Positions 47,580 through 56,857 of a stretch of DNA of 64,000 nt are shown piece by piece (within the stretch, counting starts at the first letter, position 1; each line of letters begins with the position of its first letter). The stretch covers positions 186,001-250,000 of the forward strand of contig CAIUMP010000004.1 in NCBI GenBank assembly GCA_903900335.1, given 5' to 3'. This DNA is from an uncultured Ignavibacteriota bacterium. GTDB taxonomy: Bacteria > Bacteroidota > Ignavibacteria > Palsa-1295. The position numbers were made by a program, and so were the translations under genes. The notes under the pieces were generated by a model. The model saw nothing but the letters and a program-made list of their open reading frames with translations, did no database searches and was not told the origin of the DNA.

Positions 47580-48776
47580 ATGATCTATATTTCCGTGATC
47601 TGTTTTGCGCTGTTACTCTACTCCTATGTAGGGTTTCCGCTGTTGGTCTGGGCGCTCTCCGTGCTCCGGCCCAAAAAGTGGCTACGCGACGAAACCCTGC
47701 GGCCGAGCGTTTCGATCATCCTCCCGGCATTCAATGAGGCGTTGGTGTTGCGGCGTTGTTTGAACTCCCTCCTCGCCTTGGAGTATCCAGTTGACAGGAT
47801 CGAGATCCTGTGCGGGTCGGATGGCTCAACGGATTTAACAAACTCGATTCTTAAGCAGTACTCCGAGGAGCATCCGACGCTCCGAGCCCTGTACTTTCCA
47901 AGACAACGAGGAAAGATGTTGGTGCTGAACGATCTAGTGTTCCAGGCGAAGAATGACATCCTGCTCTTTGTTGATGCCGATGTTACGCTGCAGAAAGATG
48001 CACTATTGCGTCACGTGGCGCACTACGCGGACGCGGATGTCGGCGGGGTTGCCGGTTGCCTGGCCTTCGTCGGACCTAAGCAAGATGGGGTGTTCGATTC
48101 CGAGTCGGCTTATTGGTCTGTTGAGAGTGCACTGCGGAAAAATGAGGGGCTCATCGGTTCGACGCTGGGACTTTATGGAGGCAACTATTCGATTCGGAGA
48201 GAATTGTGGCAGCCGCTTCCTAATGCCCGAGTCTATGATGACTTTTATGCAGTGCTTCACCTCCTGACCATCGGTCGCAGGATACTCTACGAGCCAAAGG
48301 CTGTTGCAGTCGAGCTATATGGTCGCAGTTTCCGAGATGAATTTAATCGGAAACGCCGAAACGCGTCCCAATCACTCTACACGCTACGATTTTTCCCATC
48401 GTTGCTCTACAGACGACACTCAGCGTGGATGCTCTGGCCCCACAAGTTACTTCGGTGGTTCTCGGGTTACCTGCTGCTGGTATTGTTGATTGGGACGATC
48501 ACATCCTTTCTCGCTGGTGCGGAGTGGTTATCACCCGTGGTCGTGATTGAAGGGGTATTTGCATTCCTCGCACTTCTCGGGTGGGTAGCTAAGCAGATGG
48601 ATCGCTCCGTGCCGATCGTGAGTCAACTCTTCTGGCTTCTCAATATTTTCCGTGCGGGGATGACCGGTGTGCTGGATTTCCTTATCGCGAGCCCTGATCT
48701 CAAGTGGTCGCAGACGACACGCGTTGCCGACCCAACGACACCACGTCCGGTATCGCAGGAGGTAGGAAAATCATGA
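47580..48776 (+). CDS. Glycosyltransferase family 2, membrane-bound
   Basis: 398 aa. An N-terminal membrane segment (ISVICFALLLYSYVGFPLLVW) is followed by a GT2 domain with VSIILPAFNEALVLRRCLNS, CGSDGSTDLT and the DxD in LLFVDADVTL. Then come a helix-rich region with RKRRNASQSLYTLRFF (the QxxRW-like site) and three C-terminal membrane helices. The layout is that of the cellulose-synthase-like/succinoglycan transferases. The stop overlaps the next start (ATGA), and the AGGAGG at 48757-48762 serves that next gene. Confidence 0.9.
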   Translation: MIYISVICFALLLYSYVGFPLLVWALSVLRPKKWLRDETLRPSVSIILPAFNEALVLRRCLNSLLALEYPVDRIEILCGSDGSTDLTNSILKQYSEEHPTLRALYFPRQRGKMLVLNDLVFQAKNDILLFVDADVTLQKDALLRHVAHYADADVGGVAGCLAFVGPKQDGVFDSESAYWSVESALRKNEGLIGSTLGLYGGNYSIRRELWQPLPNARVYDDFYAVLHLLTIGRRILYEPKAVAVELYGRSFRDEFNRKRRNASQSLYTLRFFPSLLYRRHSAWMLWPHKLLRWFSGYLLLVLLIGTITSFLAGAEWLSPVVVIEGVFAFLALLGWVAKQMDRSVPIVSQLFWLLNIFRAGMTGVLDFLIASPDLKWSQTTRVADPTTPRPVSQEVGKS

Positions 48777-50263
48777 GCCAGCGAAAAGAAATATTTTTGC
48801 TGTTACTCGGCGATTTCATTGCGTTGAATTGCGCGTGGTTTGCATTTTACTGGCTGCGGTTTGATTCGGGCTGGTCCATTTTCAAGCATCCCGCTCCAAC
48901 AGATATTTCTCCAGCGCTCCTTCCCATCACCTCCCTGGAGATCTATCTCTTTTGGATGGTGATGTTCATCTTTTTTGGACTCTATCGGCCTTGGTACGTG
49001 CGCCCGACTTTCGACGAGGTCATCACCTTGCTGAAGACCCTTGGCGTAGGTACTGTTATTTTGGCGCTCGTGATATGGTGGGATTCCGGCGATACTGCGA
49101 ACATCCCGTCCAACGATCCCCGCTTACTCGGAGTAAGCTATTGGTTCATTACCGCGATATGTTGCGTTGCTGTTCGGCTCTTGATCCGCTACACGCAGAG
49201 GAGGCTTCTTATTTCTGGTGTTGGGACAAGGCCCTCCATCATCATCGGCGAGGTAGAGAAAGTTCGAGAGCTTGCCGAGCGCGTAATTCATTTTCCGCAG
49301 CTTGGCTACGACATTATAGGATACTTAGCTCCTCAAGGACCGGTCGCGGATCATTCTTCCGGTCCGCTGAACGAGAAGCTAACTATTACGGGCCTCGAAC
49401 GAAAGGGGAAGAGCGCGGCCGCAAAGGAGATCCCCCGTCTAGGCTCGTCGGATGATTTGGAAGCAGTGATCGCCGCGCATGGCGCAAAGGAAGTCTTGAT
49501 CGCGCTTGGTTCAGGCGAACATGAGAAGATCATCGAGGTGCTTTCTCGTGCCTCGCGCTCGAACGTGGGACTGAAGATCGTCCCTGATCTTTACGACATC
49601 GTGTCTGGCCAAGCGCGAACTCGAGAGATCTACGGATTCCCGCTTATCGACATCAACCCGATCCTCATGCGTCCGTGGGAATTGGCTGCGAAACGGATGC
49701 TGGACGTTAGCGTGAGCGCCCTCGTGCTCGCACTCGGATCTCCCATTTGGGCGCTGACGGCACTCGCGGTGAAGGCTTCCTCAAAAGGGCCGATGGTGTA
49801 CTCTCAGGAGCGGATCGGCAAAGATAGCAAGCCCTTCAAGATCTACAAATTCCGTTCGATGTACACCGACGCGGAGCGAAGTGGACCGCAATGGGCCTCG
49901 AAGAATGATCCGCGGGTTACTCCACTCGGTAGATTCCTTCGCAAATCCCACTTGGATGAGGTGCCTCAAATGTGGAATGTGCTGAAGGGGGATATGTCAC
50001 TCGTCGGGCCGCGCCCGGAGCGTGAGTTCTTTGTGAACCAACTCATCCGCGACATTCCCTACTACAATCGGCGGCACAAGGTGCGGCCCGGAGTTACGGG
50101 GCTGTACCAGACGGTCGTTCACAAGTATGACGAGAACCTGGATGACGTACGACAGAAGGTCAAGTACGACTTAATGTATATCGAATCTATGTCGTTTCGT
50201 TTGGATCTGAAGATTTTGTTCCATACGGCCTACATCATGCTTCGCGGAAGAGGCCAGGCATGA
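48773..50263 (+). CDS. Polyprenyl-phosphate sugar phosphotransferase (WbaP-like), copy 1
   Basis: Start at ATG 48773 with an exact AGGAGG 10 bases upstream; the open frame further left is an overlap artefact. 496 aa: four to five membrane helices, a CoA-binding-like middle domain (PSIIIGEVEKVRELAERV ... GAKEVLIALGSGEHE) and the Bac_transf catalytic domain. The latter shows KRMLDVSVSALVLALGSPIW, IYKFRSMYTDAE, NDPRVTPLGRFLRKSHLDEV (catalytic D-E) and GDMSLVGPRPEREFFV. It starts each repeat unit by moving a sugar-1-phosphate onto undecaprenyl phosphate. It is followed after 10 bases by a close paralogue. Confidence 0.93.
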   Translation: MSQRKEIFLLLLGDFIALNCAWFAFYWLRFDSGWSIFKHPAPTDISPALLPITSLEIYLFWMVMFIFFGLYRPWYVRPTFDEVITLLKTLGVGTVILALVIWWDSGDTANIPSNDPRLLGVSYWFITAICCVAVRLLIRYTQRRLLISGVGTRPSIIIGEVEKVRELAERVIHFPQLGYDIIGYLAPQGPVADHSSGPLNEKLTITGLERKGKSAAAKEIPRLGSSDDLEAVIAAHGAKEVLIALGSGEHEKIIEVLSRASRSNVGLKIVPDLYDIVSGQARTREIYGFPLIDINPILMRPWELAAKRMLDVSVSALVLALGSPIWALTALAVKASSKGPMVYSQERIGKDSKPFKIYKFRSMYTDAERSGPQWASKNDPRVTPLGRFLRKSHLDEVPQMWNVLKGDMSLVGPRPEREFFVNQLIRDIPYYNRRHKVRPGVTGLYQTVVHKYDENLDDVRQKVKYDLMYIESMSFRLDLKILFHTAYIMLRGRGQA

Positions 50264-50273
50264 TCCATCAACC

Positions 50274-51758
50274 ATGACACAGAGGCGGGAGCTATTCTAC
50301 CTGGTCATCGGCGATTTTTTCGCGCTCAACTTAGCGTGGGTGTTCTTCTTTTTCCTCCGGGTGGATTCAGGGGTCTTCGTCCTGCGCCAAGGAGTCCATC
50401 CGAATGTCTCTGCCGAAGCGCTGCCGGAGTCCGCGCTGCTACTCTACATGTTCTGGATGGTCTTCTTCGTGTTCTTTGGGCTGTACCGTCCCTGGTATGT
50501 TCGAGCACCCTTCGATGAGATCATTACAATATTAAAGACGCTGGGTGTGGGTACGATCCTGTTATCTGTGCTGATGTGGTGGGATCCCTCGAACACGCTA
50601 AGTACCAGTGCCAACGATCCTCGAGTACTCGGGCTAACCTATTGGTTGATAACCGCGGCCTTGTGCGTAAGTGTCCGTTCACTTATCCGATATGTTCAGC
50701 GTCGCTTGTTGGAGTCTGGTGTAGGAACCAGGCGGTCGATCATTATTGGTGACATCGAGAAATCGCGTGATCTTGCGGCGAGAGTGGCCCATTATCCGCG
50801 CCTTGGGTATGATGTTATTGGGTTTGTAAGCCCTATCGCCTATCAGACTGATGACAATTCGCCAGTCAGATTCAGCGTGGAGCAGCGGTCGGGCAGGGGA
50901 CTGAAGCATCGTACCCCGAAAGAAGTCCCACTTCTGGGACGGACCGAAGATCTGGAAACGGTCATAGATCAGTTCGGGGTCAAAGAGGTCCTGATCGCGC
51001 TTGGCTCGGACGAACACGATAAGTTGATCGACGTGATCGCTCGCGCTTCGAAGTCGAACGCCGGTTTAAAGATCGTCCCGGATCTGTATGACATTGTCTC
51101 GGGTCAGGCTCGTGCAAAGGAGATCTATGGGTTTCCGCTTATCGACATCAATCCCGTGCTACTCAAGCCCTGGGAAGAGGCTGCAAAGCGAACGATGGAT
51201 GTTGTGATAAGCCTCATCATGATCATTCTTGGTAGCCCAGTTTGGATCGCCACTGCGATCGCGATCGGAGTGACCTCCAAAGGTAGCTTGATCTACTCCC
51301 AGGAAAGGGTCGGACGCGAGGGCAAGTTTTTCAGAATATACAAATTCCGGTCGATGTACGTGAATTCCGAGGAAGGCGGACCTCAGTGGGCCTCCAAGAA
51401 TGACCCGCGGGTGACCCCGATCGGCAGATTTCTGCGAAAATCCCATTTGGACGAAGTTCCGCAGTTGTGGAATGTCCTGAAGGGGGATATGTCCCTTGTC
51501 GGTCCGAGGCCTGAACGCGAGTTCTTCGTTAAGCAACTTATTCGGGAAATTCCGTACTATAATCGCCGTCACAGGGTTCGTCCGGGCGTGACTGGACTCT
51601 ACCAGGCCATGATCGACAAGTACGACGAGAACATCGACGACGTTAAGCAGCGCGTCAAGTATGACCTGATGTACATCGAGTCGATGTCGTTTCGTTTGGA
51701 TGTGAAGATTCTGTTCAGGACGGCGGCAATGATGATGCGCGGCAAGGGGCAAGCGTAG
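50274..51758 (+). CDS. Polyprenyl-phosphate sugar phosphotransferase (WbaP-like), copy 2
   Basis: 494 aa, the same domain order as the gene before it and very similar in sequence. Shared blocks include DLYDIVSGQAR, KEIYGFPLIDINP, SHLDEVPQ and GDMSLVGPRPEREFFVKQLI. Catalytic residues are intact (IYKFRSMYVNSEE, LRKSHLDEVPQLWN). The copies differ most in the first cytoplasmic/membrane part and in the linker before the catalytic domain (about 195-235, RFSVEQRSGRGLKHRTP here). This suggests a recent tandem duplication, perhaps with different donor sugars. Start ATG 50274. Confidence 0.92.
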   Translation: MTQRRELFYLVIGDFFALNLAWVFFFFLRVDSGVFVLRQGVHPNVSAEALPESALLLYMFWMVFFVFFGLYRPWYVRAPFDEIITILKTLGVGTILLSVLMWWDPSNTLSTSANDPRVLGLTYWLITAALCVSVRSLIRYVQRRLLESGVGTRRSIIIGDIEKSRDLAARVAHYPRLGYDVIGFVSPIAYQTDDNSPVRFSVEQRSGRGLKHRTPKEVPLLGRTEDLETVIDQFGVKEVLIALGSDEHDKLIDVIARASKSNAGLKIVPDLYDIVSGQARAKEIYGFPLIDINPVLLKPWEEAAKRTMDVVISLIMIILGSPVWIATAIAIGVTSKGSLIYSQERVGREGKFFRIYKFRSMYVNSEEGGPQWASKNDPRVTPIGRFLRKSHLDEVPQLWNVLKGDMSLVGPRPEREFFVKQLIREIPYYNRRHRVRPGVTGLYQAMIDKYDENIDDVKQRVKYDLMYIESMSFRLDVKILFRTAAMMMRGKGQA

Positions 51759-51806: not shown

Positions 51807-52934
51807 GTGAGTGTAGCAGGCAGCATTCCAGCGATCCAGATGGTAGATGTCATCGGTCAATATCATCGGTATCAGGATGAAATTGACAACGCCATTCTTG
51901 AGGTGGTCCGCAGCGGCAAGTACATAAACGGCCCATACGTTCAGCGCTTCGAACGCGCTATGGAGAGCTACCTCGGAGTAAAACATGCGATCGCATGTGC
52001 CTCCGGGACCGATGCACTTCAGATCGCCATGATGGCCATGGACCTGCAGCCTGGAGATGAGATCATCACGACGCCCTTCACCTTCGCCGCGACGACGGAG
52101 ACGATCGTGCTGCTTGGCGGGGTGCCCGTCTACGTGGACATTGATCCGCAGACGTTCAATATTGATGTCGAACGCATCGAAGAGAAGATCACTCCGCGTA
52201 CGAGGGCCATCCTACCGGTGCATCTCTTTGGCCAGCCAGCGAACATGACACGCATTCGCGAGATCGCCGACAAACATCACCTGCTGGTCATTGAGGATGC
52301 AGCCCAGGCTGTTGGTGCCAAATGGAATGGAGCAATGGTATGCGGGATTGGCGACATGGCGACGATCTCGTTCTATCCATCCAAGAATCTTGGGGCATTC
52401 GGGGACGCGGGTATGATCACGACAAACGACGACGCACTTGCCGCTGCGCTGCGCACCATCTGCAATCATGGCTCTGACAGGGCCTACTACCACGACCGTC
52501 TTGGGGTGAATTCACGGCTTGATGCCATCCAGGCCACGATCCTGAATGTCAAATTGCAATATTTGAACGAGTGGAATGCCACGCGTTCTGCGATGGCTGC
52601 GCTATACTCGAACCATTTTGCTGGGTATGGAGACCAGATCATGGTGCCTGTCGTTGCGGAAGGTGCCACACCTATTTGGCACCAGTATTCGATCATCCTG
52701 AAGGACGGTCGCGAAAAAGCGATGGAGCATTTGAAGGCTGCGGGTGTTCCTTTCAACATCTATTATCCTGTTCCGCTGCATCTCCAAAAGGCGTATGTCG
52801 CTGGTAAGCTGGGGGACTTCCCGCTAACGGAATTCGCTGCAGCCCACATCCTTTCGCTCCCCATGCATTCCGAGCTAACGCCGGAGCAGGTTGAGTATAT
52901 TGCGGGTCAGGTAATCACAGCAATCGGTAAATAA
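51807..52934 (+). CDS. DegT/DnrJ/EryC1 sugar aminotransferase (WbpE-like)
   Basis: 375 aa, GTG start at 51807 with AGAGGA 8 bases upstream. PLP enzyme of the sugar aminotransferase class; the lysine is K193 (FYPSKNLGAFGDAGMITT). SGKYINGPYVQRFERAM, CASGTDALQIAMMAMDLQPGDEII, PVYVDIDPQTFNID and FNIYYPVPLHLQKAYV follow the WbpE pattern closely. WbpE aminates the 3-keto uronic acid in the UDP-2,3-diacetamido-uronic acid pathway. With WbpA- and WecB/WbpI-like genes in the same cluster this role is plausible. The oxidase (WbpB) and acetyltransferase (WbpD) are not here. Confidence 0.88.
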   Translation: MSVAGSIPAIQMVDVIGQYHRYQDEIDNAILEVVRSGKYINGPYVQRFERAMESYLGVKHAIACASGTDALQIAMMAMDLQPGDEIITTPFTFAATTETIVLLGGVPVYVDIDPQTFNIDVERIEEKITPRTRAILPVHLFGQPANMTRIREIADKHHLLVIEDAAQAVGAKWNGAMVCGIGDMATISFYPSKNLGAFGDAGMITTNDDALAAALRTICNHGSDRAYYHDRLGVNSRLDAIQATILNVKLQYLNEWNATRSAMAALYSNHFAGYGDQIMVPVVAEGATPIWHQYSIILKDGREKAMEHLKAAGVPFNIYYPVPLHLQKAYVAGKLGDFPLTEFAAAHILSLPMHSELTPEQVEYIAGQVITAIGK

Positions 52935-52948
52935 CCACTCTATCACGT

Positions 52949-53692
52949 ATGGCGCGGGCACTTCTCATCGTTCCAACTTACAACGAGCGCGATAACATCG
53001 TGCGGATCATCCACCAGATCCTCGCTGAGCAGCCGAACTGCCCTGGCGTCGAGCTCAACGTTCTCGTGGTGGATGACAATTCGCCCGATGGGACATCCGA
53101 TGTTGTCCGCGAATTGCAGAGCTCCGAGGATCCAACGGAAGCCCACATCCATCTGCTCTCGCGCCCTGGCAAGATGGGCCTTGGCACAGCATACGTTGCA
53201 GGTTTCCGCTATGGTCTGGAGCATAGGTACGACTACATCTTTGAAATGGATGCGGATTTTTCGCATGATCCCAAAGAGATACCGAGCTTCCTGCGAGAGA
53301 TCGTACACTATGATCTCGTTATTGGCTCGCGCTACATTCCCGGCTCACACATTGATAATTGGCCGAAGAGCAGGCTCATGCTCTCCTACAATGCAAACCT
53401 CTACGCGCGCCTTATCACTGGCATCCCTGTCAAAGATGCCACCGGCGGATTCAAGTGCTTCCGACGCGAAGTGCTGCAGGCCATAGATCTTTCGGACATT
53501 CGCTCGAACGGATATGCATTTCAGATCGAGATGAATTTCCGCTCGTGGCGCAAGGGATTTCGGATCAAGGAGATACCGATCACGTTTGCGGACCGCCATG
53601 CAGGCACGAGCAAGATGAGCAAAGCGATCGTCCGAGAAGCGGTCGGGATGGTGTGGAAGCTGAAGGCCCGCGCCGTAATGGGCGAGCTGTAA
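52949..53692 (+). CDS. Polyprenol monophosphomannose synthase-like GT2
   Basis: 247 aa GT2 enzyme without a C-terminal membrane domain. Motifs: LLIVPTYNERDNIVRIIHQI, VLVVDDNSPDGTSDVV, the catalytic EMDADFSHDP and DATGGFKCFRREVL, then GYAFQIEMNFRSWRKG and ITFADRHAGTSKMS. All match dolichol-phosphate-mannose synthase (DPM1-like) proteins, which make a polyprenyl-phosphate sugar on the cytoplasmic side. In this cluster it probably supplies the donor for the GT39-like and YfhO-like enzymes. It could also be a lipoprotein N-acyl-related mannosyl enzyme. Confidence 0.92.
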   Translation: MARALLIVPTYNERDNIVRIIHQILAEQPNCPGVELNVLVVDDNSPDGTSDVVRELQSSEDPTEAHIHLLSRPGKMGLGTAYVAGFRYGLEHRYDYIFEMDADFSHDPKEIPSFLREIVHYDLVIGSRYIPGSHIDNWPKSRLMLSYNANLYARLITGIPVKDATGGFKCFRREVLQAIDLSDIRSNGYAFQIEMNFRSWRKGFRIKEIPITFADRHAGTSKMSKAIVREAVGMVWKLKARAVMGEL

Positions 53693-53707: not shown

Positions 53708-55750
53708 ATGGATATTTCAATCGTCATTGTCAGCTATAACGTCAAGGAGTTTCTCCGTGGCGCGATCCTGAGCGTCCAGCGCTCACTGGAGGCTGGCGGG
53801 TTGACGGGCGAGATACTGGTTGTGGATAATGACTCCGCCGATGGTAGTGCGGCGATGGTTCAAGTCGAATTTCCCAACGTGCGGATACACGCGTTGAAGG
53901 AAAATCTCGGCTTTGGACGGGCTAATAACCTCGCGATGCGGGAAGCAACGGGAGACTATCTTCTGCTGCTGAATCCTGATACTATCGTTGGTGAGGACAC
54001 CCTTCGCACAATGTTCGACTTCATGCGGGAACATCCAGAAGCGGGGCTCGCAGGCTGCAAGCTTTTGAACGGTGATGGTTCCTTTCAGATCAGTTGCCGA
54101 CGTGGATTTCCCTCACCTTGGGCAAGTTTCTCAAAGTTGTTTGGCCTTTCGCGACTTTTTCCGAAATCCCCACTCTTCGCTCAGTATAATCTTACCCATC
54201 TCCCCGTAGACCAGACATACGAAATTGATGCGCTCAGTGGTGCCTTCATGTTGCTCTCTCGACAGGCATACAAGGCTACGAACGGTTTCGACGAAGATTA
54301 CTTCATGTACGGGGAGGACTTGGATCTCTGCTTCCGAACCAAGAAGGCAGGCTTCAAAGTTTTCTATGTGCCCACGACGGCGACCATTCACTTCCAGGGT
54401 GAGTCAACCAAGCGCAGCGCGATAAACGAGATCAACGTCTTCTACGAGGCGATGCACATCTTTGTAAAGAAGAGCTATCGCTCGTCACGGATCTTTAGCG
54501 CACTGCTTCGCCTGGGTATCTTCCTGCGGACGGTGATCGCTCTGCTCAAGAAATATCGGGCGGTGATCGGGTTAGTCATATTGGACTACCTCACCGTCGC
54601 TGCAGGCGTACTCCTTGGCTCCCGGCTACTGCTCGACAAATGGTTTGGTCTTCCCAGCGAGGACTATCCCTTCGCGATAATTCTCCCGCCAGTTATTGTG
54701 GTTTGCCTTTTGGCTATCCTTAAATCCTATTCTGGCAATGAACGGCGAAGCCCAAGGCAGATCGTTATCGCAATGCCCGCGATCCTTATCGGCCTTTCTT
54801 CGCTTACCTATTTCTTCAAGGAATTTCCTGCAAGTCGCGCGGTTGTCATGGTGGTGACTGCTGTGACTGGCGCTCTATTGCTGCTCAATCGGCTTGCGCT
54901 GGGAATCGCCGACCGCATTCGGTGGGGAGGGGACAACACGGCCAGCCCATCGCTCAGACCAACACTCATCGTTGGTACGACTTCGGAGGCCTTGCGAATC
55001 GCAGAATTGCTTCGCCGCACACAATTCCTTCGTCGGTATGAAGTAGTCGGGTTCATCGATAGTTCACTTTCCAGGCTTGGCGAAGAACCCATTGGAGGTA
55101 TCCCGATCCTTGGGGATGCGAACATGATGGGGAAGGTCGCACGGGAGCATCGGATTTCAGAGGTCATTTTTGCGAGCGACGCCGCGCCGTATATGGAAAT
55201 GCTGGCAATGATGCAGCGAGTCTCCGCCGAGAATGTCTCTTCTCGTGTGAATTTCAATATGGTACCGACGGCCAGCGAGGTATTGCTCGGTCGGCGCAAG
55301 ATCGAATTTCTTGCTCCGAGTGCTGAGAGTTCGCTTGCGCTCATGCCCATTGAATACAACTTGCAGCGGCTTTCCCATCGCGTGGTCAAGAGGATGCTCG
55401 ACATTGCTGTGAGTGGCGCCGCACTGATGTTCGTGCCACTTTTCAGCCTACTGAGCACCCCACTACATCGCAGAGAGCGAATCCAGCGCTGGCTTCGGAT
55501 GTTCCGTGGAGAGCTGACACTTGTTGGTGTCGCTGGCGCAGAGGCCCGCTCAACATTTTTTTCAACACCAGGCCTGACAAGTCTCGCCGCTGTAGCGGCT
55601 CCAAATGATGTGCGCGAAGAGGATCTGCATCAATTCGATCAGTATTACGCCCGCAATCACACGCTTGGAATGGATTTTGAAATTCTTCTGAAGACACTCG
55701 TTTTCCGGAAAGATCGAGTTGGGACGAAGGTGTATCCCGGTCCGCAATGA
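53708..55750 (+). CDS. Chimera: GT2 glycosyltransferase fused to a degenerate polyprenyl phosphosugar transferase
   Basis: 680 aa. The N-terminal GT2 domain (1-275) has VIVSYNVKEFLRGAILSV, VDNDSADGSAAM, LLLLNPDTIVGEDT and YMYGEDLDLCFRTKKAG, like rhamnosyltransferase-type enzymes. From about 280 on come four membrane helices and a CoA-binding-like domain (PTLIVGTTSEALRIAELLRR ... GIPILGD). The final part starts VKRMLDIAVSGAALMFVPLF like the WbaP catalytic domain. The core with FRSM, NDPR and the catalytic D-E is missing: the sequence jumps to LRMFRGELTLVGVAGAEA, equivalent to GDMSLVGPRPERE. So the initiating-transferase half is very likely inactive and may serve as a docking or membrane platform. 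It is the last gene of the polysaccharide cluster. Confidence 0.85.
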   Translation: MDISIVIVSYNVKEFLRGAILSVQRSLEAGGLTGEILVVDNDSADGSAAMVQVEFPNVRIHALKENLGFGRANNLAMREATGDYLLLLNPDTIVGEDTLRTMFDFMREHPEAGLAGCKLLNGDGSFQISCRRGFPSPWASFSKLFGLSRLFPKSPLFAQYNLTHLPVDQTYEIDALSGAFMLLSRQAYKATNGFDEDYFMYGEDLDLCFRTKKAGFKVFYVPTTATIHFQGESTKRSAINEINVFYEAMHIFVKKSYRSSRIFSALLRLGIFLRTVIALLKKYRAVIGLVILDYLTVAAGVLLGSRLLLDKWFGLPSEDYPFAIILPPVIVVCLLAILKSYSGNERRSPRQIVIAMPAILIGLSSLTYFFKEFPASRAVVMVVTAVTGALLLLNRLALGIADRIRWGGDNTASPSLRPTLIVGTTSEALRIAELLRRTQFLRRYEVVGFIDSSLSRLGEEPIGGIPILGDANMMGKVAREHRISEVIFASDAAPYMEMLAMMQRVSAENVSSRVNFNMVPTASEVLLGRRKIEFLAPSAESSLALMPIEYNLQRLSHRVVKRMLDIAVSGAALMFVPLFSLLSTPLHRRERIQRWLRMFRGELTLVGVAGAEARSTFFSTPGLTSLAAVAAPNDVREEDLHQFDQYYARNHTLGMDFEILLKTLVFRKDRVGTKVYPGPQ

Positions 55751-55813: not shown

Positions 55814-56857
55814 ATGGCTAAGACAATTCTCGATTTTGAGAAACCGCTTGAAGAGCTCGAACAAAAGCTTGATGAGATGCGAACGCTCGCCGCGACCGTA
55901 GAGCTCTCAAGCGAGATCGCCGTCATGGAGGGAAAGATCGAAGCACTGCGCACGGAAACGTATCGGAATCTCACGCGGTGGCAGCGCGTGCAGCTTGCCC
56001 GCCATCCAGAGCGTCCGTACGCCCTCGATCATATTCTTGCGATGTCACCCGATTTTGTCGAGCTTCATGGCGACCGAAATGTGCGCGACGATCCGGCGAT
56101 CGTGGGCGGGTTCGGCACGCTTGAGCCGTTCGGAAGTGTGATGTGGATCGGTCACCAAAAAGGTCGTGACACAAAACAAAATGTGATTCGGAATTTCGGA
56201 ATGCCGAACCCAGAAGGGTATCGTAAGGCACTCCGCCTGATGAAGCTCGCAGAGAAATTTGGTAAGCCAGTTGTCACGTTATTGGATACGCCCGGTGCGT
56301 TTCCCGGTATCGAAGCCGAAGAGCGCGGCCAAGCAGAAGCGATCGCTCGTAACCTCTTCGAGATGGCGCGGCTCAACGTCCCGATCGTTGTGACGATCAT
56401 CGGCGAGGGCGCATCCGGCGGTGCGTTGGGAATTGGCGTTGGTGATCGAATCCTTATGCTGGAGAATGCATGGTACAGCGTGATCTCTCCCGAGAGCTGC
56501 TCATCGATCTTGTGGCGAAGCTGGAATTACAAGGAGCAGGCTGCCGAAGCATTGAAATTGACGGCGCTCGACATGCTCTCGCAAGGCATCATTGACCGGA
56601 TCGTACCGGAGCCACTCGGCGGTGCACATAGAGATCCTCAGGTGATGTTCGACACCTTCAAGCAAATACTAGTGGAGGAATTGGAAGCATTACGAGAGTT
56701 ACATCTGCTTGAAAGCCAGTCCGCACTGACTCGACGAACGGAGAAATTTAGTAGGATGGGTGTCTGGAATGAAATCCCTGAGGTGGTGCATAGCCCGGAA
56801 GAAGTGGGATTTCCTGAGGCCCAGCCTGCGGAAACCGCTGAGTCGGAGTCGCTCTAA
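55814..56857 (+). CDS. accA: Acetyl-CoA carboxylase carboxyltransferase subunit alpha
   Basis: 347 aa, ATG start at 55814. Part of the enzyme making malonyl-CoA for fatty acid synthesis; works with AccD in the cytoplasm. The N-terminal helix [17 protein letters not shown] is typical, as are [69 protein letters not shown] and [14 protein letters not shown]. It lies 63 bases after the polysaccharide cluster and opens a group of housekeeping genes; accD and the biotin subunits are not in view. The C-terminal ~30 residues are extra and not conserved. Confidence 0.97.

Follow-up and report, generated by a model that had tools for sequence, protein, structure and literature searches.

Within the 64,000-nt stretch of DNA analysed here (the window), a gene on the forward strand at 53708-55750 encodes a 680-aa protein in which a GT2 glycosyltransferase is followed by what appears to be a pseudoenzyme derived from a large monotopic phosphoglycosyl transferase (Lg-PGT). 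The reading frame has no internal stop, starts 15 bases past the preceding gene and has coding-like G+C by codon position over its entire length. The fusion and its neighbours are laid out as follows, residue numbers being those of the fusion.

48773-50263, + strand: intact Lg-PGT paralogue A (Pfam, pairwise comparison)
50274-51758, + strand: intact Lg-PGT paralogue B (PGT_B), 65% identical to A (Pfam, pairwise comparison)
51807-52934, + strand: DegT-type sugar aminotransferase (best NCBIfam match PseC, under the cut-off)
52949-53692, + strand: DPM-like GT2 (polyprenyl-phosphate hexose synthase type), conserved immediate upstream neighbour
53708-55750, + strand: fusion gene, GT2 glycosyltransferase joined to putative pseudo Lg-PGT (ORF call, Pfam, AF2 model)
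53708-54481, + strand: GT2 domain, residues 1-258 (Pfam, alignment, AF2 model)
54557-54925, + strand: membrane helices 284-309, 317-337, 349-369 and 377-406, a four-helix bundle of Lg-PGT type (AF2 model; homology to PGT_B and WbaP)
54953-55267, + strand: Rossmann-like PF13727 (CoA_binding_3) domain (Pfam, profile match, fold search)
55268-55363, + strand: hairpin region of low pLDDT in the monomer model, where WbaP has a domain-swapped beta-hairpin (AF2; comparison with WbaP, PMC10942596)
55364-55447, + strand: retained reentrant-helix region with KRxxD (561-565) (alignments, AF2 model)
55445-55462, + strand: junction at which the PGT core lacks about 60 residues (KFRSM, NDPR) (alignments, profile-profile)
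55460-55504, + strand: equivalent of the LDE helix, its dyad replaced by E590-R591 (AF2 model, profile-profile alignment, residue scoring)
55505-55699, + strand: retained C-terminal PGT core with G-ELTLVG, PGLTS, YYARN and MDxEI (Pfam, alignments, AF2 model)
55814-56857, + strand: accA-like gene, conserved immediate downstream neighbour (named from its own sequence)

Pfam placed PF00535 (GT2) on residues 4-134 (74.6 bits) and PF13727 on residues 348-511 (36.5 bits), and matched PF02397 (Bac_transf) only over profile positions 98-174 of 179, at 27.7 bits with a cut-off of 27. In the GT2 domain, D40, the DxD-like N89-P90-D91 and E203-D204 are invariant across 78 members of the family. The two Lg-PGT paralogues lie in tandem at 48773-51758, ahead of a single sugar aminotransferase gene; both are intact, as had been proposed, with PF02397 covered over positions 1-178 at 226-227 bits each.

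The AF2 model of the fusion, built on an alignment of 78 sequences, had a mean pLDDT of 88.4, with the PGT remnant mostly folded. It comprises a GT2 fold, membrane helices between 284 and 406, a Rossmann-like domain, a hairpin region at about 520-550 whose placement is poor, helices at 555-580 (the reentrant-helix region) and 585-599, and then two strands and two C-terminal helices. By profile, the C-terminal half matched WbaP (PDB 8t53, E 1.4e-25) and PglC (8e37, E 1.3e-10). Because GT2 matches dominate the fold search with the full model, this half was also folded and searched alone, and its best PDB match was WbaP (E 1.6e-11). The TM-scores to WbaP were low (0.27-0.39, rmsd 9-17 Å; whole C-terminal half 0.30, 16.8 Å), so that the fold search backs each domain singly rather than their arrangement. 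Swapped hairpins of the PF13727 domains are mainly what holds the WbaP dimer together, and the AlphaFold monomer model misplaced the hairpin (PMC10942596); the fusion retains the equivalent region, with low pLDDT in its monomer model.

Profile-profile alignment (hhalign) of the fusion family with 23 intact Lg-PGTs, among which the window's own two were entered twice, revealed that residues 280-674 are colinear with residues 1-494 of PGT_B (100% probability, E 8.3e-42). A single gap of about 60 residues (PGT_B ~328-387) deletes KFRSM and NDPR, and a second, smaller gap (~13 residues) follows the VGPRP position. The original prediction held that the whole FRSM/NDPR/LDE core had been lost. The first two motifs are indeed gone, but the LDE-bearing helix persists, predicted at 585-599 and aligned without gaps to LDEVPQLWNVL, and only its dyad is replaced, by E590-R591. 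This position is variable across the family, and DE was found there in none of the scored relatives, compared with 23 of the 23 intact PGTs. The KSB1 members come nearest to the ancestral LDE helix, one of them having LNKLPYIWSILKGDMSFVG where PGT_B has LDEVPQLWNVLKGDMSLVG. The Arg positions matching PglC R88 and the PRP motif are not conserved in the family, the former being a putative R88 counterpart, assigned from its spacing to the dyad in PglC numbering. The positions that are kept (KR..D, the reentrant-helix Pro, VG, the G of PG.TG, Y, D and I) lie outside the dyad and are conserved in intact PGTs too.

The presence of the reentrant-helix region and the C-terminal PGT core is indicated by the AF2 helix 555-580, the PF02397 match and the hhalign alignment. 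With a four-helix bundle and PF13727 ahead of the PGT core, the fusion has the architecture of an Lg-PGT; it lacks the Asp-Glu dyad and the KFRSM/NDPR segment that mark an active monotopic PGT (PF02397). It shares with the large monotopic PGTs of the WbaP/WcaJ type (PF13727 + PF02397; 8t53) the four-helix bundle, the Rossmann-like domain, the hairpin region, the reentrant-helix region and the C-terminal core, and differs from them in the loss of the catalytic segment and dyad and in the GT2 domain in front. That the C-terminal half is a catalytically dead Lg-PGT of the WbaP type is well supported by these sequence comparisons, and the central proposal of the original prediction, an intact GT2 followed by a dead initiating phosphotransferase in one ORF, is borne out by Pfam, hhalign, the missing core and the altered dyad.

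The family is widespread. The search covered the window's own genome and 60 relatives; 60 of these 61 genomes gave some match, nearly all covering most or the whole of the protein, and at least 109 of 296 sampled genomes of the phylum had one continuous match across almost the entire profile. Among the best 80 loci of a scan of named genomes, full-length members were found in Ignavibacteria, Kryptonium, Bacteroidales, Hymenobacter, Chitinophagales, Saprospiraceae, Rhodothermia, Balneolaceae, KSB1, Marinimicrobia and TA06. The gap recurs in all aligned full-length relatives from several phyla; relatives that have it and are full-length are present in almost all genomes of the class, and beyond it in Bacteroidia, Rhodothermia, KSB1, Marinimicrobia and TA06. 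Since the same break recurs across Bacteroidota and neighbouring phyla, the fusion is an old protein that has been maintained, and no sequencing error. Shortened relatives also occur. The Calditrichota members L095 and L118, together with L124, end past the Rossmann domain (GT2 + TM + Rossmann); L129, L135 and L147 retain only the GT2 and part of the Rossmann domain, a form that occurs in several Bacteroidota genomes, some of them Flavobacteria-like by our own reading. Judged by domain content, these relatives represent a stepwise loss of the C-terminal half, and the PGT remnant is not required everywhere, given that it or most of the C-terminal half is gone in some lineages.

No fusion-family member with an intact core was found among the relatives or among the long PGT frames of the class that were inspected. 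One candidate, L169 (572-2938 of G018:C86, same class), encodes 788 aa with a GT2 and an intact PGT in which KFRSM, NDPR and LDE are all present; it was rejected because its GT2 belongs to a different group, scoring 43 bits against the profile of the fusion family compared with 522 bits for the GT2 of the window. The G018 genome carries the dead-PGT fusion as well. Bifunctional PGTs, whose chain carries a further functional domain, are already known, according to the passage of PMC10942596 that cites an analysis of the PGT superfamily. Like the fusion described here, they join a PGT module to another enzyme in a single chain; the PGT module is intact in L169, whereas every member found of the window-type fusion has a dead one. 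L167 (5026-7509 of G290:C21, 827 aa) was rejected as a fusion of a polytopic PGT (PF00953) to an intact monotopic PGT. It sits immediately 5′ of an aminotransferase/DPM-like/fusion/accA block, and similar frames of 828-834 aa with PF02397 are present in G033, G294, G060 and G279. L168 proved to be an ordinary PGT inside an overlong frame, and the 1492-aa frame of L166 (G155:C1), considered as a larger fusion, is an artefact that opens with a run of masked N. FpgA of F. psychrophilum (PMC4293000), a candidate for a homologue that has been studied, was set aside, as its gene appears too short.

A conserved gene order places the fusion between the DPM-like synthase and accA. In 81 loci (80 relatives and the window), accA lies directly 3′ of the fusion in at least 32 and the DPM-like gene directly 5′ in at least 29, the counts being minima because contig ends cut some of the loci. 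The recurrence of these flanks, KSB1, Marinimicrobia and Calditrichota included, identifies the fusion genes as orthologues. At least 61 of the 70 genomes from the class have an intact PGT upstream of the fusion on the same strand, 0.75-3.6 kb away. The fusion usually has no adjacent PGT in KSB1, Marinimicrobia, Calditrichota and Bacteroidia, and at most Bacteroidia loci neither a DPM-like gene nor a PGT adjoins it.

A tree of the TM + Rossmann region separates the pseudo-PGTs from the intact neighbouring PGTs at one branch (98/94); as its root is not fixed, a single origin fits the tree but is unproven. For pairs with finite, unsaturated dS, dN/dS was 0.06-0.18 in the PGT remnant and 0.02-0.07 in the GT2, the former exceeding the latter roughly 2-8 times; most pairs have large synonymous distances, which makes these ratios rough. 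Mean pairwise identity is 26-29% in the C-terminal half versus 57% in the GT2. By these measures, purifying selection acts on the dead half, though less strongly than on the GT2.

Taken together, the protein is probably a membrane-bound GT2 glycosyltransferase acting on polyprenyl-linked sugars, in which the dead Lg-PGT serves as membrane anchor and dimerisation module. The GT2 would add a sugar to a polyprenyl-linked acceptor at the cytosolic face. The C-terminal half would be an old Lg-PGT that lost catalysis through excision of KFRSM-NDPR and loss of the Asp-Glu dyad and was retained in a structural capacity. Its four-helix bundle and reentrant helix may tether the GT2 domain to the membrane, and its Rossmann domain and hairpin probably dimerise, giving either homodimers or heterodimers with an intact Lg-PGT. 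The GT2 activity, its acceptor, the membrane-anchoring role and the dimerisation are what we infer. The original prediction went further, proposing that the dead half is a built-in scaffold on the lipid carrier. A scaffold is plausible, on indirect grounds: purifying selection, the predicted fold, the survival of membrane elements and of those of dimer type, and the intact PGT found upstream in most genomes of the class. The specific lipid-carrier version is disfavoured, because the equivalents of PglC Arg88, the PRP-motif Arg and the dyad are not conserved, because outside the class the gene mostly has no PGT next to it, and because Calditrichota have dropped the PGT remnant while keeping the GT2, TM helices and Rossmann domain.

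It is possible, if doubtful, that the fusion is instead a docking or regulatory subunit whose dead half heterodimerises with the upstream Lg-PGT through the Rossmann hairpin and either passes the polyprenyl-PP-sugar to the GT2 or throttles the PGT. The gene order in the class suggests such a heterodimer, and the region corresponding to the swapped hairpin of WbaP is present; however, that order is not general, genes from KSB1, Marinimicrobia, Calditrichota and Bacteroidia mostly having no PGT next to them, and the hairpin is explained equally well by homodimers of the fusion. The broader proposition, that a phylum-spanning monotopic-PGT pseudoenzyme heterodimerises with a live PGT to dock a second-step glycosyltransferase or to regulate the PGT, we consider unlikely.

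A passive C-terminal tail, the decaying leftover of an old bifunctional enzyme in which only the GT2 matters, is quite improbable: stepwise reduction of this half in several lineages and its lower conservation relative to the GT2 would fit such decay, but it has a dN/dS well under 1, keeps its length and motifs, and is predicted to fold. Very improbable is a remnant that presents the acceptor by still binding polyprenyl phosphate in the former PGT site. Although the protein retains both the reentrant-helix region and the PG.TG strand, the dyad is absent and the equivalents of the PRP-motif Arg and of R88, which is among the PglC residues implicated in UndP binding (PMC10519829), are unconserved. 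A sequencing error, frameshift or mis-assembly as the cause of the missing core is effectively ruled out by the continuous coding frame and by the recurrence of the gap in dozens of independent genomes.

For the membrane-bound GT2 that we favour, dTDP-rhamnose is a weak guess as donor sugar. The fusion has the GT2 fold and motifs in common with the GT2 rhamnosyltransferases (TIGR01556; RmlT, PDB 8bz7), RmlT is among its top fold matches, and an rmlD-cluster gene, which in Marinimicrobia clears the NCBIfam rmlD cut-off, lies 5′ of the DPM-like gene at Marinimicrobia, KSB1 and Calditrichota loci. Against TIGR01556, however, the fusion scores 32.1 bits, with a cut-off of 200.55, and GalNAc transferases equal RmlT in fold-search score.

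Dead enzyme copies retained as scaffolds are known in other systems. In the open-licence literature searched, no conserved, catalytically dead PGT fused to a GT2 has been described, and in the open-access literature searched, no scaffold-type dead copies of initiating phosphoglycosyl transferases. According to PMC12871550, the machinery that makes the conserved core of protein O-glycans in Bacteroidota has yet to be identified, and, more speculatively, the fusion and the DPM-like synthase could be part of it.

In summary, the PGT half of the fusion has lost its active site yet kept its membrane parts, under selection across several phyla, which makes a structural job of Lg-PGTs apart from catalysis directly testable. 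It also opens a test of how lipid-linked glycan assembly couples its first step to its second, and the gene marks a conserved, uncharacterised glycan pathway of Bacteroidota and their relatives.
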